A stretch of DNA of 58,599 bases from Ruminiclostridium sp. (GTDB lineage: Bacteria; Bacillota; Clostridia; Oscillospirales; Ruminococcaceae), in assembly GCA_017395555.1 (NCBI GenBank), contig JAFPUE010000136.1, positions 1-58,599 on the forward strand, in the 5' to 3' direction. The number at the start of each line of letters is the position of its first letter. Positions within the stretch are counted from its first letter, which is position 1. The translations under genes were made by a program, and so were the position numbers. The notes under the pieces were generated by a model that did not search any database, was not told the origin of the DNA, and saw nothing but the letters and a program-made list of their open reading frames with translations. Shown one piece after another: positions 17,765 through 51,345 of this stretch.

Positions 17765-18345
17765 ATTTTAGAGACTTTCAAGAGATTTCGAGAGCTTTAA
17801 GACGGGGGCGCTGCCCCTGCGACCCCGACTTCTGTCGGTCAGCCCCTCTGGCAGCAAGTTGCCACCTCCCCGTTTGCGGGGAGACACCCCTTTGGAAAAG
17901 TGGGCTTGACACCCTACGGCACGATGCCGTATGGAAGTTTCCAAAAGCGCGCACGATGCGCGCATTAAAGAAACTTCCGATAAACCTAATGCAGTATTTC
18001 AGAGTTCCTTCTATGGACGGCTCTCATAGAAATGCAGTGGGGCTGGCGATATATCATTCAAGAATAACAAAAGACCGTTGACACTGTTAGTTTCAACGGT
18101 CTTTTTTGTTCAAAACTCTGTAATCTTTTTCCCCATTGATGTGAGCTGAATAGTAGAAACAGAGTTATAATAAGAAGAGAGCAGTCAATGAGTCGCCGCC
18201 TGTGCAATTCTTGTCCCTCAAACCTCACTTGTGCGGCGGATTTGTTTAGGGGGTCCAGCCCCCTTTTCCAAAGGGGGACTGGCGGGGTCCGGGGCGGCGT
18301 CCCGTCTCAAAAATCTCAAAAAAGTCTCAAAGCTCTCTACACGCC
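17765..18345. repeat. Large dispersed repeat, copy A (inverted to 33100-33613)
   Basis: The reverse complement of this stretch matches 33100-33613. From the CCGGACCCC block near 18295 back to the central hairpin (about 240 bp) I count only about four single-base differences. The other half is clearly related but diverged, with an extra segment near 17885-17910. It contains the bidirectional terminator at 18069-18105, a GC-rich palindrome near 17870-17890 and short open frames that I regard as non-coding. It lies between convergent genes (HIT and fliJ). Confidence 0.9.
18069..18105. terminator. Bidirectional terminator in repeat copy A
   Basis: AAAAGACCGTTGA (18069-18081) pairs perfectly with TCAACGGTCTTTT (18093-18105); T runs face both ways. 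Confidence 0.8.
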
Positions 18346-33099: not shown

Positions 33100-33613
33100 T
33101 TGAGACTTTTTGAGAGCTTTAAGACGGGGGCGCTGCCCCGGACCCCGCCAGTCCCCCCTTTGGAAAAGGGGGCTGGACCCCCTAAACAAATCCGCCGCAC
33201 AAGTGAGGTTTGAGGGACAAGAATTGCACAGGCGGCGACTCATTGACCGCTCTCTTCTTACTATAACTCTGTTTCTACTATTAAGCTCACATCAATGGGG
33301 AAAAAGATTACAGAGTTTTGAACAAAAAAGACCGTTGACACTGTTAGTTTCAACGGTCTTTTGTTATTCTTGAATGATATATCGCCAACCCCACTGCATT
33401 TCTATGCGAGTCACCCATAGCAGAACGCTCTGAAATACTGCATTAGGTTTATCGGAAGTTTATTTAATGCACTCATCGTGCGCGCTTATGGAAACTTCCT
33501 TACGGCATCGTGCCGTAGGGTGTCTCCCCGAACACGGGGAGGTGATGTTTTCGCTTGCGAAAACGGCAGAGGGGCTGACCGACAGACTCAGAGCCCCCTC
33601 TCTGAAATCTCAT
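33100..33613. repeat. Large dispersed repeat, copy B (inverted to 17765-18345)
   Basis: Inverse partner of copy A. It holds GC-rich palindromes (GGGGGCGCTGCCCC-like near 33123), a CGCCGC/GCGGCG stem near 33192-33236, the central terminator hairpin and, near 33517-33587, the module GTGTCTCCCCGAACACGGGG with TTTTCGCTTGCGAAAA that recurs at 45240-45330 and 51265-51335. It lies between the convergent comFB-like and spoIID-like genes. No real gene is seen. Confidence 0.9.
33326..33362. terminator. Bidirectional terminator in repeat copy B
   Basis: AAAAGACCGTTGA (33326-33338) pairs with TCAACGGTCTTTT (33350-33362); T runs face both ways. Confidence 0.8.
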
Positions 33614-43834: not shown

Positions 43835-45178
43835 ATGGCAAATGTAACGATGTCAAAGCGCGCGCTCGTAAGGATCATAACCTTTTCGCTCGCTGTCATA
43901 CTCACGCTCGCGATTTTTGCGGTAAGCTACGCCGGACGTGCCGTAAAAGCCGAAAGAGCCGTCGAAAACGGCTATATGCACGCTATTGAGGAGCTTTCCC
44001 TCGATCTTGACAACATAAAGAACAATCTGCAAAAAGGAATGTACACCAACAGCATATCCATGCTCTCCGATCTGTCGGAGAAGCTGTGCAGCGATGCCGC
44101 GGACGCGAAGAACTCGCTTTCCCGCCTGCCGGTAAAGGAGCTCGATCTCACCGAGACCTACCGCTTTCTGTCACAGGTGGGCAATTACTCGAAATCCCTC
44201 GCGGAGAAATGCGCCGAGGGCGGAAGCCTGACCTCCGAGGAGCGCAAGAATATTGCCGCTCTGCACGACTACGCGCAGAAGATCAGCGGCAGTATGTGGG
44301 ATATCGAGCAGCGCATCGGCAGCGGTGAGATCACGCTTTCCGACACGATAAACGCCGCGTCGGACATCAAGGCGGACGGGCTCGTGACCGTTACCGACGG
44401 CTTCAACGATCTCGCAACGAGCGACGAGACCTTCCCGACGCTGATATATGACGGTCCTTATTCGGATCATATAATGAACAAGTCGCCGCTCATGCTCAAA
44501 AACGAGAAAAAGATAGACGAAGCGGAAGCGCTTCGCATAGCGAAGAAGCTCGCCGACGGGAACGAGCTCCGGCTGCTGACGCAGGAGGAAGGCAAGATGC
44601 CGTCCTACGTTTTCACGGACGGAAACCGCACGATCGCGGTAACAAAGGCGGGCGGAATGTACTCGTATATGCTGTCCTCCCGCAATACCGGCAAGCAGAC
44701 CATAACGGCGAAGGAAGCCGTGATACGCGCCGAAGAATTTCTTGCGGTGCTCGGCATACGCGGGCTAACCGACTCATACTATGAGATAAGGAACGGTATC
44801 TGCGTAGTCAACCTTGCCGCCGAGCAGAACGGGATAACGATGTACACCGATCTGATAAAGGTAGGCGTCGCCCTTGACAACGGCGAGGTGCTGTCATTCG
44901 ATATGCGCGGCTATCTCACGAACCACACTATACGCGAGCTCCCGCCGCCCAAAATATCCGGCGAATACGCAAAAACTCTCGTTTCCGGCAGCCTTGACCC
45001 CATATCATCCAAGCTCTGCGTTATCCCCTCCGGCGGCAAAAACGAGATATTCTGCTACGAGGTGCGCTGCACCGGCTCCGAGGGCGAAAATATCCTCGTC
45101 TATCTCAACGCCGTCACCGGCCGTGAAGAACAGATCTTAATATTAAAGATAGGCAGCGGCGGCGTGCTGACAGTATGA
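43835..45178 (+). CDS. ypeB: Germination protein YpeB
   Basis: 447 aa, the usual length. One N-terminal membrane helix (IITFSLAVILTLAIFAVSYAG), then the YpeB helical region (ENGYMHAIEELSLDLDNIKNNLQKGMY) and PepSY-like repeats in the second half (KEAVIRAEEFLAVLGIRGL). YpeB stabilises and inhibits the spore cortex-lytic enzyme SleB. No sleB gene is next to it, although sleB-ypeB pairing is usual. AAAGGAT precedes the ATG. The promoter may come from the palindrome just upstream; a sporulation sigma motif is not clear to me. Confidence 0.9.
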   Translation: MANVTMSKRALVRIITFSLAVILTLAIFAVSYAGRAVKAERAVENGYMHAIEELSLDLDNIKNNLQKGMYTNSISMLSDLSEKLCSDAADAKNSLSRLPVKELDLTETYRFLSQVGNYSKSLAEKCAEGGSLTSEERKNIAALHDYAQKISGSMWDIEQRIGSGEITLSDTINAASDIKADGLVTVTDGFNDLATSDETFPTLIYDGPYSDHIMNKSPLMLKNEKKIDEAEALRIAKKLADGNELRLLTQEEGKMPSYVFTDGNRTIAVTKAGGMYSYMLSSRNTGKQTITAKEAVIRAEEFLAVLGIRGLTDSYYEIRNGICVVNLAAEQNGITMYTDLIKVGVALDNGEVLSFDMRGYLTNHTIRELPPPKISGEYAKTLVSGSLDPISSKLCVIPSGGKNEIFCYEVRCTGSEGENILVYLNAVTGREEQILILKIGSGGVLTV

Positions 45179-45199: not shown

Positions 45200-45350
45200 G
45201 ACGCGCGTCTTCGCAGACGGCGCCGGGGCTGCGCGCCCCCGTCCCGCGCAAGGGCAGAGTCTGTCGGTCAGCCCCTCTGCCGTTTTCGCAAGCGAAAACA
45301 TCACCTCCCCGTGTTCGGGGAGACACCCTTGACCCAAATGCCGTAATACG
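45200..45350. repeat. Dispersed repeat module (inverted to 51239-51345)
   Basis: It contains TCTGTCGGTCAGCCCCTCTG, TTTTCGCAAGCGAAAA, the CCCCGTGTTCGGGG palindrome and GACACCCTTGACCC, the exact inverse of 51255-51345. It lies just after ypeB. The 863 bp between ypeB and the phosphoglucomutase gene hold this repeat, the small RNA candidate and three partial terminator copies; no protein gene is seen. Confidence 0.8.
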
Positions 45351-45418
45351 GAAATTAAAAAGACAGCAAACCATTCGTCTTTTCGGCAAATTACAAATTG
45401 TAATCAATTCCCCGGAAA

Positions 45419-45451
45419 TTGTAACCGGATAGTAACCGCATTGTAACCGGT
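45419..45451 (+). promoter_or_regulatory. Three tandem 11-bp direct repeats
   Basis: TTGTAACCGGA, TAGTAACCGCA and TTGTAACCGGT lie end to end at 45419, 45430 and 45441, one helical turn apart, 7 bp before the -35 box at 45458. This geometry is that of binding sites for OmpR/PhoB-type response regulators (inference). Confidence 0.6.
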
Positions 45452-45457
45452 TTGTTG

Positions 45458-45486
45458 TTGTATTCTGTAAAAAAACGTGATATAAT
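45458..45486 (+). promoter_or_regulatory. Promoter of the small RNA candidate
   Basis: TTGTAT (45458-45463), 17-bp spacer, TATAAT (45481-45486). The weak -35 box and operator repeats suggest activation. Confidence 0.65.
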
Positions 45487-45492
45487 ACAGAC

Positions 45493-45758
45493 AGAAAGAG
45501 GGAAACAGAGAAAGAAAAACAGAAGTAAACAGCGGAGCAGACGGCTTGACCGAATTAATATAAAAACGTATGTCTGTCAATGTCCTCCTTACTGCCGGAA
45601 CAACACACCGGCAGACCAAATGCCATTTTGTCATTACCACGGTGCCCTCCCTTGTACGGTCACGCCGCCTCCCGCTTTATATAAACAGCGATAATATATA
45701 CCCTCCTTACCCCTTTCGTATGACCGCAGCCCCGGCACAACGGCTGCGGTCTTTTTTT
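45493..45758 (+). ncRNA. Candidate C-rich small RNA, ~270 nt
   Basis: It runs from the predicted start to a strong terminator. No credible protein frame with ribosome site is present. The first 60 nt are purine-rich. The rest holds four CCUCC-type motifs (near 45583, 45647, 45668 and 45703) that could pair with ribosome-binding sites, and a CTGCCGG/CCGGCAG hairpin at 45591-45613. ACAGAC near the 5' end can pair with GTCTGT near 45571. I do not recognise a known RNA family. The downstream gene has its own promoter, so this is a separate unit. Confidence 0.55.
45722..45758 (+). terminator. Strong terminator of the small RNA candidate
   Basis: GACCGCAGCC (45722-45731) pairs with GGCTGCGGTC (45742-45751), then seven T. 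The 3' arm plus T run, CTGCGGTCTTTTTTT, recurs at about 45770 and 45866 without a 5' arm beside it. Confidence 0.9.
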
Positions 45759-45916
45759 GCTTCGGCACCTGCGGTCTTTTTTTTGCAATTCTCTGCGTTT
45801 CCCACAAGGCGTTCCCATTGATGTGACTTTGAAATACTGCTGTCGCCCGTGCCGGCTTCGGCACCTGCGGTCTTTTTTTGCGGTTCGGCACCTGCAATAA
45901 AAATTTGATATGAATA

Positions 45917-45945
45917 TTGCAATTTTCTGTTGGTTATGATATAAT
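45917..45945 (+). promoter_or_regulatory. Promoter of phosphoglucomutase
   Basis: TTGCAA (45917-45922), 17-bp spacer, TATAAT (45940-45945). The leader to the ATG is about 90 nt. Confidence 0.75.
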
Positions 45946-46041: not shown

Positions 46042-47760
46042 ATGGACATAAATGCACTTTATCAGCTCTGGCTCGAAAAAGCAGTAAAAGACCCGGATCT
46101 TAAAAAAGAACTCGAATCCGTAAAGGGCAACACGGAAGAGATAAACGACAGATTCTACCGTGAGCTCGAATTCGGCACCGGCGGTCTGCGAGGCGTTATC
46201 GGTGCGGGAACCAACCGCATGAACTATTACACCGTGTGCAAGGCTACACAGGGACTTGCTTCCTATCTTATGAAGATAAAGCCCGAGGGCGCTTCCGTTG
46301 CCGTGTCCTACGACAGCCGCATAAAGTCGTCTTATTTCGCCGAGTCCGTTGCGGGCGTTCTCTCCGCAAACGGCATACAGGTATTCATCTACAACGAGCT
46401 TATGCCTACACCTATGCTCTCGTGGGCAGTAAGATATCATAAATGCGACGCGGGCGTTATGGTAACGGCTTCGCACAACCCCGCAAAGTACAACGGCTAC
46501 AAGGTTTACGGTCCCGACGGCTGTCAGCTCACTATCGACGCGGCAAATGCTGTTCTTGACGAGATCAACAAGACCGACGTATTCGAGGGTATCAAGGCTA
46601 TTTCCTTCGAGGAAGGCAAAAAGAGCGGTCTTATAAAGTATATCGACGACAAGTGCATCGACGATTATATGGCAGAGGTCAGAAAGCAGTCCATTCACCC
46701 CGAGGTATGCGCGGGCGCTGGTCTGAAGGTTGTATATACTCCCCTTAACGGAACCGGCAACAAGCCCGTTCGCCGTATCCTGAAAGAGATCGGAATAAAG
46801 GAAGTCGTTGTCGTTCCGGAGCAGGAAAATCCCGACGGCAACTTCACCACCTGCCCGTATCCGAACCCCGAATTCAAAGAGGCTCTGCAGAAGGGACTTG
46901 AGCTTTGCCGCAAGGAAAAGCCCGATCTCCTGCTCGCAACCGATCCCGACGCTGACCGTGTCGGTATCGCGGTGCCGGACGGCGATGATTACGCGCTGTT
47001 CACGGGCAACGAGGTAGGCTCGCTGCTTCTTGAATATGTTGCACGCGAGAGAAAAGCTCTCGGCACACTGCCCAAGGATCCCGTAGCGGTAAAGACAATA
47101 GTTACCACGGAGCTCACACGCGCTATCGCGAAGAAATACGGCATAGAGCTTATCGAAGTTCTCACCGGCTTCAAATTTATCGGCGAGCAGATAGGCTTCC
47201 TCGAAAAGAAGGGCGAAACAGACCGCTATATCTTCGGCTTTGAGGAGAGCTACGGCTATCTTGCGGGCGGATATGTACGCGACAAGGACGCTGTTGTTGC
47301 ATCAATGCTGATCTGCGAAATGGCTGCGTTCTACCGCGCACAGGGAATTTCTCTGATCGAAGCGAGAAAGAGAATGTACGAGGAGTACGGCTGCTACTGC
47401 AATAAGCTCGACAACTTCGCATTTGAAGGTGCCAGCGGAATGGCGAAGATGCAGGAGATAATGACAAGCATTCGCACGAACGTTCCGAAGGATATCGCGG
47501 GAACAAAGGTTGTTGCGTTTGCGGACTATGAGGCAAGTGAAAAGACCGATGTTGCTACCGGCGAAAAGACGAAGATAGATCTGCCGAAGTCCAACGTTAT
47601 CACGCTGTATCTTGACGGCGGCGCAAGCCTTATTATCCGTCCGTCCGGCACGGAGCCCAAGATCAAGATCTACTACACCACTATCGGCAAGACCAATGAA
47701 GAAGCCGCCGCTATTCAGGCAAAGTACGCAGAAGCGTTTACAAAATTAGTAAAAGGCTAA
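46042..47760 (+). CDS. pgcA: Alpha-phosphoglucomutase (phospho-sugar mutase)
   Basis: 572 aa, the length of PgcA-type enzymes. It interconverts glucose-1-phosphate and glucose-6-phosphate. FGTGGLRGVIGAGTNRMN at the start, the catalytic phosphoserine Ser144 in TASHNPAKYNGYK, the metal loop DPDADRVG, the sugar loop GFEESYGYL and the phosphate loop RPSGTEPKIK are all visible. The ATG at 46042 has an AAAGGA site; an ATG at 46009 does not. It would take glucose-1-phosphate from cellobiose phosphorylase. The small membrane gene follows after 31 bp. Confidence 0.94.
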   Translation: MDINALYQLWLEKAVKDPDLKKELESVKGNTEEINDRFYRELEFGTGGLRGVIGAGTNRMNYYTVCKATQGLASYLMKIKPEGASVAVSYDSRIKSSYFAESVAGVLSANGIQVFIYNELMPTPMLSWAVRYHKCDAGVMVTASHNPAKYNGYKVYGPDGCQLTIDAANAVLDEINKTDVFEGIKAISFEEGKKSGLIKYIDDKCIDDYMAEVRKQSIHPEVCAGAGLKVVYTPLNGTGNKPVRRILKEIGIKEVVVVPEQENPDGNFTTCPYPNPEFKEALQKGLELCRKEKPDLLLATDPDADRVGIAVPDGDDYALFTGNEVGSLLLEYVARERKALGTLPKDPVAVKTIVTTELTRAIAKKYGIELIEVLTGFKFIGEQIGFLEKKGETDRYIFGFEESYGYLAGGYVRDKDAVVASMLICEMAAFYRAQGISLIEARKRMYEEYGCYCNKLDNFAFEGASGMAKMQEIMTSIRTNVPKDIAGTKVVAFADYEASEKTDVATGEKTKIDLPKSNVITLYLDGGASLIIRPSGTEPKIKIYYTTIGKTNEEAAAIQAKYAEAFTKLVKG

Positions 47761-51153: not shown

Positions 51154-51238
51154 TTTGTTCTCCTTCTACAAATTTCCCCCGCTGTACTGCGGGGGAATCA
51201 TGTTTGTTTTCAATCTTTTCAGAGACTTTTCAAGTTCC

Positions 51239-51345
51239 GTGTTACGGTCATTGGGTCAAGGGTGTCTCCCCGAACACGGGGAGGTGATGTTTTCGCTTGC
51301 GAAAACGGCAGAGGGGCTGACCGACAGACTTTGCCCTTGCGCGGT
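51239..51345. repeat. Dispersed repeat module (inverted to 45200-45350)
   Basis: CCGTGTTACGGTCATTGGGT, GGGTGTCTCCCC-gaacac-GGGGAGG, TTTTCGC-tt-GCGAAAA and GGGGCTGACCGACAGACT follow each other. It lies between lysC (upstream) and the ThyX-like gene. Confidence 0.8.

Follow-up and report, generated by a model that had tools for sequence, protein, structure and literature searches.

Between a ypeB-like gene and a phosphoglucomutase gene (pgm), the 58,599-nt stretch of DNA analysed here (the window) carries a tandem array of 11-bp repeats followed by a promoter and an intrinsic terminator. Does this unit encode a regulatory RNA, and if so, which regulator would control it and what would the RNA do? 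A sequence-only reading had proposed a small RNA (sRNA) with CCUCC motifs behind an operator of the OmpR/PhoB type. Comparison with related genomes supports a candidate sRNA gene behind such an operator, because the promoter is conserved, terminator-like stems are present, a shared reading frame is absent, the main hairpin shows compensatory changes, and CCUCC-type motifs are in excess in all eight copies of the type found in the window (type A). We think it probable that 45419–45758 is a free-standing gene whose product, a trans-acting sRNA, belongs to a WalR-like envelope regulon and blocks the sites at which translation starts.

Architecture of the locus

The elements of the locus are collected in Table 1. 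The three 11-mers lie end to end as claimed, and the weak −35 element with TATAAT (45481–45486) after a 17-bp spacer was confirmed by coordinates, whereas the gap between the array and the −35 element, given earlier as 7 bp, measures 6 bp. The strong terminator described about 270 nt further on is also present: its stem and T7 tract yield an RNA of ~266 nt if transcription starts near 45493. The next gene has, as proposed, a promoter-like site of its own, and pgm is preceded by a similar promoter in relatives (by eye). A consensus promoter and terminator scan missed both the sRNA promoter and the sRNA terminator of the window; the −35 element is too weak for the scan rule.

The operator–promoter region aligns without gaps over 67 bp at 16 loci from 15 genomes, and in this alignment the TG and TATAA of the extended −10 element are invariant or nearly so. 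Half-sites similar to the possible distal one precede related copies (by eye). An array of three copies at an 11-bp step, each matching TGTAAC at five or more of its six positions, occurs once in the window. Across the own genome of the window (2.6 Mb, 137 contigs, 87% complete), a two-repeat pattern without mismatch was found at this site only, and a looser three-repeat pattern with one mismatch at this site and two others, with none in the reversed control.

Two families of repeats flank the unit. A dispersed intergenic repeat lies just 5' of the operator (45244–45362) and elsewhere in the window (51226–51344, 33517–33589 and 17831–17889), with likenesses of 119 bp at 94% identity, 73 bp at 100% and 69 aligned positions at 74%. 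It contains a CTCCCCG...CGGGGAG hairpin, and a similar CTCCCC...GGGGGAG hairpin is found within the sRNAs of several relatives. Right after the sRNA terminator, an exact direct repeat, CTTCGGCACCTGCGGTCTTTTTTT, occupies 45760–45783 and 45856–45879, with a partial third copy at 45884; it resembles copies of a terminator half.

Table 1 Features of the locus in the window and, in the last row, of a second RNA in the same genome
Feature	Position	Strand	Basis or remark
ypeB-like gene, 5' of sRNA	43835–45178	+	Pfam YPEB_PepSY1-2 and YPEB_N
Possible distal operator half-site, ATTGTAATCAAT, ~21 bp 5' of array	45397–45408	+	Sequence
Operator repeat 1, TTGTAACCGGA	45419–45429	+	Sequence, operator–promoter alignment
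Operator repeat 2, TAGTAACCGCA	45430–45440	+	Sequence, operator–promoter alignment
Operator repeat 3, TTGTAACCGGT	45441–45451	+	Sequence, operator–promoter alignment
Imperfect repeat 4, TTGTTGTTGTA, in register, overlapping −35	45452–45462	+	Sequence, alignment
−35 element, TTGTAT	45458–45463	+	Sequence
Extended −10 element (TG-A-TATAAT), TGATATAAT	45478–45486	+	Sequence, alignment
Predicted sRNA, ~266 nt	45493–45758	+	Computed; start inferred 7 nt after −10
Closing hairpin, 5' arm	45531–45552	+	Cognate versus swapped arm tests
CCTCC-containing loop motif (anti-SD), mostly unpaired in the predicted fold	45578–45590	+	Fold prediction
Inner hairpin, CTGCCGG...CCGGCAG	45592–45614	+	Sequence; identical in G034, changed in G058
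Second anti-SD loop, CCCTCCCTT	45645–45653	+	Fold prediction
Closing hairpin, 3' arm, holding the third CCTCC (paired)	45657–45677	+	Arm-swap tests
Pre-terminator anti-SD region	45698–45708	+	Sequences read, fold prediction
Intrinsic terminator, 10-bp GC-rich stem (45722–45751), then T7	45722–45758	+	Sequence, terminator scan
Promoter-like site of pgm, separate from sRNA promoter	45917–45945	+	Promoter scan
Phosphoglucomutase/phosphomannomutase gene	46042–47760	+	Pfam PGM_PMM domains; 3' of all 8 type A copies
Short terminated RNA with near-invariant ATCCTGAGTTATCCTTCCATAA and TGTAAC-type operator	G000:C100:11100–11220	−	Loci L099, L207

Distribution among relatives

A blastn search found matches in 34 of 149 related genomes, own included, strongest over the operator and promoter and near full-length in only two relatives (80% and 74%). 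When the loci were read, the same kind of unit was recognised in 15 of the 71 genus genomes, so the search of relatives for the same repeats and terminator, suggested earlier as a check, finds the unit conserved. The other blastn matches, mostly short and promoter-like, were excluded from this count; several lead into proteins or other RNAs. Eight copies are of type A (window, G058, G034, G011, G002, G038, G051 and G043). Six are of type B (G039, G007, G053, G048, G061 and G068), with promoter and hairpin as in type A, and a single shorter one (G059) is of type C. The terminator scan picked out the expected terminator in five type A copies; in the remaining three (G034, G038 and G051), an interrupted T tract follows a strong stem (by eye).

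Eleven named contigs that carry a strict version of the promoter belong to metagenome-assembled genomes (MAGs): five bear the label Ruminiclostridium sp., four uncultured Clostridia, one Ruminococcus and one Ruminococcaceae, and the rumen is named for three. A YpeB match is present in 63 genus genomes, and 30 of these were placed in a YpeB tree, from which G059, whose match is truncated, is absent. The other 14 bearers of the long RNA, together with G024, which has only the short RNA described below, fall into one 16-genome clade (support 100/100), and the sole member with neither RNA is G063. The presence label costs two changes on this tree, for example a single gain together with one loss or gap in an assembly. 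Most of the genomes are incomplete drafts. The eight type A genomes form one clade nested within the larger one (support 97/97).

Predicted fold and covariation

The closing hairpin covaries: across the eight type A copies, it retains pairing while its arms diverge, the outcome of the covariance check that the earlier reading had called for. With arms read by hand, cognate pairs averaged −28.5 kcal/mol versus −20.5 kcal/mol for swapped pairs, and 5 of 40320 permutations were as stable; fixed 26-nt windows, which include an inner CGCTT in G058 and G051, gave −28.0 versus −20.8 kcal/mol (9 of 40320). The corresponding values for hand-read arms of type B (n = 6) were −28.0 versus −24.3 kcal/mol, with 3 of 720 permutations as stable. 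Some 5' arms form a more stable duplex with one or more foreign 3' arms than with their own, namely two of eight in type A when read by hand (G034 and G051) and five of eight in fixed windows, and the covariation evidence therefore rests on the whole set rather than on single rows. RNAalifold on a MAFFT alignment of type A found almost nothing (about −0.08) because the loops do not align, and the arm-swap tests were used instead.

CCUCC-type motifs

The window transcript does contain the four CCUCC-like stretches that had been described (CCTCC or CCCTCC starting at 45584, 45645, 45668 and 45701). Their predicted unpaired fractions of 0.83, 0.80, 0.20 and 0.50 correspond to two loops, one stem and one linker, so that the third, predicted to lie in the stem of the closing hairpin, would not be in an accessible loop. 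Matches to CCTCC, CTCCT or CTCCC number eight against a shuffle mean of 0.76, and none of 1000 shuffles scored as high; in the seven remaining type A transcripts, between 0 and 57 of 1000 did. All type A copies have a TACC(C)TCCTT-type motif ahead of the terminator stem, and predicted motif openness exceeds the transcript mean in six of the eight, the exceptions being G038 and G051. No enrichment was found in type B (n = 6; 147 to 1000 of 1000 shuffles as high) or type C (n = 1; 226 of 1000). The result for type B weakens the idea of a single common mechanism; these RNAs may work through other motifs, ATCCTTCC being present in five of the six.

We infer that the motifs may act by blocking ribosome sites. 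A 10-base run matching a 16S-tail string occurs in G002, G038, G051, G043 and G059 (0 to 3 of 1000 shuffles), and the longest such match in the window, seven bases, is unremarkable (113 of 1000). CAU or CAUGAU stands 5' of the anti-Shine-Dalgarno (anti-SD) motif in six genomes (the same five and G011); no clear anti-AUG was seen in the loops of the window copy. The target prediction that had been recommended, carried out as two narrow pattern searches, gave no target. The type A anti-start motif (21-letter pattern, up to three mismatches) matched 16 times in nine genomes and once in the reversed control, with only two matches (G058 and G043) before the same gene and no target common to more than two genomes. 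The sole exact match was the G051 sRNA locus read backwards; four matches precede exported-looking proteins (by eye). The second loop, conserved in the window, G058 and G034, matched the three sRNA loci themselves and one G034 site with three mismatches, and its reversed control matched three times.

Candidate regulator and regulon

The 11-bp step of the repeats bears out the OmpR/PhoB-type spacing noted earlier, and the repeats match the WalR consensus, TGTWAH-N5-TGTWAH (PMC9210968). The window operator, TGTAAC/AGTAAC/TGTAAC with N5 spacing, comprises two exact copies and one with one mismatch, that is, one mismatch per adjacent pair; G058 has three exact TGTAAC copies in register. Four OmpR-type response regulators were found in the own genome (87% complete). 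None reaches the NCBIfam YycF cut-off, the closest being L102 (205 versus 340 bits), whose DNA-binding domain has RegX3 as its nearest structure, followed by WalR and VicR. By these comparisons, L102 would be the best regulator candidate.

An operator–promoter model, made from sequence only, has one or more sites in 61 of 71 genus genomes (E ≤ 0.01), its 16 best matches being its own seeds. Similar operators in the own genome precede a PP2C phosphatase gene with a kinase-like ORF after it (kinase by eye), a gene whose 162-aa product has a hydrophobic N-terminus and matches nothing in Pfam, and a terminated RNA of short length; in relatives, they precede lipoprotein-like, vWA and NlpC/P60 genes. 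The PP2C operator site lies at G000:C70:8006–8033 (−) (loci L097 and L111), and the same gene start stands behind the operator in G053 and G034. The recognisable co-regulated genes, most of their products judged by eye, appear to be envelope or signalling genes, with no phosphate gene among them, and the operator sites fit a WalR-type envelope regulon. Given the fit to the WalR consensus and this gene content, envelope stress is therefore a better test condition than phosphate limitation.

The short RNA, recognised by ATCCTGAGTTATCCTTCCATAA with up to two mismatches, is a single-copy feature of 15 of the 71 genus genomes, and 14 of these also carry the long RNA. Its TGTAAC-type operator and a terminator-like stem were seen in all 13 genomes inspected for them (the 15 less G058 and G024), and its length is roughly 95–120 nt where folded. 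At four other loci (L025, L026, L027 and L049, in G031, G009, G036 and G018), a similar operator is followed, from locus position ~1500, by a long stretch that appears non-coding and closes with a terminator-like stem; TTTCTCCTCTTT comes before that stem in three of the four. This is perhaps a further sRNA type.

A hydrolase gene at the same position outside the clade

We surveyed the neighbourhood of ypeB at 12 of 14 outgroup and 15 of 16 clade loci (L091, L096 and L079 were left out). An NlpC/P60 gene lies ~0.1 to 0.7 kb 3' of ypeB on the same strand in 11 of the 12 outgroup loci, and in five of these, one weakly, the operator stands between the two genes. L022, L023, L083, L086 and L094 are loci of relatives outside the clade with NlpC/P60 behind the operator directly 3' of ypeB. 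No NlpC/P60 gene was found beside ypeB at any of the 15 clade loci, of which L072, L076 and L077 have less than 250 nt of downstream sequence. In searches of whole genomes at E ≤ 1e-5, this gene went undetected in nine of nine clade genomes and was detected in three of three outgroup genomes.

The most economical account is loss of the hydrolase gene and retention of its promoter to drive an RNA. The alternative origin, arrival of the sRNA unit from elsewhere, is suggested by G011, G002, G038 and G051, where the unit is near pgm yet away from ypeB. We propose, tentatively and with somewhat more doubt than belief, that the sRNA gene arose in the lost NlpC/P60 slot and took over an envelope-stress operator, that the short sRNA was gained at about the same point of the tree, and that the clade thereby moved part of its envelope response from protein to RNA. 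If so, the signal that used to call for a wall-cutting enzyme would now yield a ribosome-blocking RNA.

Alternative readings

The same neighbourhoods would suit a plain relic, in which the promoter of the lost hydrolase gene still fires and gives a terminated, functionless RNA: outside the clade, the NlpC/P60 gene follows ypeB in 11 of 12 loci examined, in five of them behind the operator, and it is undetected in the nine clade genomes tested. However, a relic should decay, whereas the hairpin carries compensatory changes across eight type A species, CCUCC-type motifs are in excess in every one of them, and the unit stands away from ypeB in several genomes. We therefore regard a relic as improbable. 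Somewhat less so, though still unlikely, is an sRNA gene whose operator is served by a phosphate regulator of the PhoB/PhoP type. PhoB sites are also 11-bp direct repeats, and a gene for a PhoB-like regulator adjoins a sensor-kinase-like ORF in the own genome (PhoB model, 234.6 bits versus a cut-off of 296.2), but the repeat core TGTAAC fits the WalR consensus, and the recognised products behind the operator, most of them judged by eye, include no phosphate gene.

The position of all eight type A copies directly 5' of pgm could mean that the RNA is a leader or attenuator of that gene rather than a free sRNA. We hold this to be very improbable: a terminator and a separate pgm promoter lie between the two in the window, at the loci examined, pgm was not found beside type B copies, and in G059 the copy and pgm are divergently oriented. 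A small protein encoded on either strand is the least credible reading of all, although ATGTCTGTCAATGTC opens an 83-codon frame, the longest in the window transcript. That frame runs past the terminator, has no SD by eye, and stops in relatives after 25 codons (G058), 22 (G034) or four (G038); its ATG is TTG in G051, which lacks any ORF of 20 codons. Among 15 transcripts, a single one combines an ORF of at least 20 codons with an SD-like sequence (the minus strand was judged by eye, in part). For the transcript tests, the L012 transcript end was placed by hand at 495 nt, and L039, a second G059 copy whose promoter leads into an ORF (by eye), was left out. The transcript has no conserved reading frame, in agreement with the original claim that it holds no good protein frame, and the small-protein reading was dropped on these grounds.

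Proposed mechanism and comparison with known systems

For the sRNA of a WalR-like regulon, we infer regulator identity, sign of control, expression, SD blocking and targets as follows. A response regulator of the OmpR/PhoB family, most likely WalR-like, would bind three to four head-to-tail 11-bp sites and thereby control the extended −10 promoter, with activation likelier than repression, since the array extends to the −35 element. The ~266-nt RNA would consist of a single large hairpin, a linker and then the terminator, with CCUCC/ACCUCCUU stretches exposed in the apical region of the hairpin and in the linker. The CAU a few bases 5' of the anti-SD in several relatives would make this segment the reverse complement of a Shine-Dalgarno sequence plus start codon. 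The sRNA would most likely repress mRNAs with a strong SD, probably those of envelope genes, while the envelope regulon is on.

To our knowledge, the envelope-stress sRNAs described so far under two-component control come chiefly from streptococci, Listeria and Gram-negatives. Rfam contains an LhrC family; cmscan of the window at the gathering score returned one tRNA and nothing at the sRNA locus, and at E ≤ 5 seven related loci gave seven weak matches to other families, all below the gathering score. A phage collection gave no match. Among the literature matches listed, the titles and abstract openings, with subscription papers mostly outside their scope, contained no description of such an RNA and no WalR-controlled sRNA of this kind.

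The WalRK regulon of Firmicutes has the operator consensus matched here, and similar operators in the present genomes stand before PP2C phosphatase, lipoprotein-like and, in relatives, NlpC/P60 genes. The csRNAs of streptococci, controlled by CiaRH, have direct repeats of 11-bp period before the promoter and several RNAs per regulon; CiaR sites read TTTAAG-N5-TTTAAG, and the RNAs are 51–202 nt long (PMC3091779). The unit in the window is alike in its 11-bp repeats, in being intergenic with a promoter and then an intrinsic terminator, and in belonging to a regulon with several RNAs. It differs in its TGTAAC-N5-TGTAAC operator, its longer RNA with a large covarying hairpin, and its different bacterial hosts. 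Assignment to CiaR was rejected, since the repeat core (TGTAAC/AGTAAC/TGTAAC) is not TTTAAG.

LhrC1-5 of Listeria monocytogenes are induced through LisRK on cell-envelope stress and block the SD with redundant C-rich (UCCC) motifs in loops and a linker (PMC4132741). They share with the RNA described here a two-component-type operator, C-rich motifs predicted to be mostly unpaired, and a free terminated transcript. The present system departs from LhrC in its regulator and in that most genomes have a single copy of the long RNA, with the short sRNA encoded separately. The two sRNA genes are confined to almost the same genomes, and the outgroups reveal what follows the operator there, so that the origin of an sRNA gene from an inherited promoter can be put to the test. 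Homologous to neither csRNAs nor LhrC by any test made, the sRNA is on our best reading one that would work like both, and it offers a candidate case in uncultured clostridia together with the outline of a regulon.
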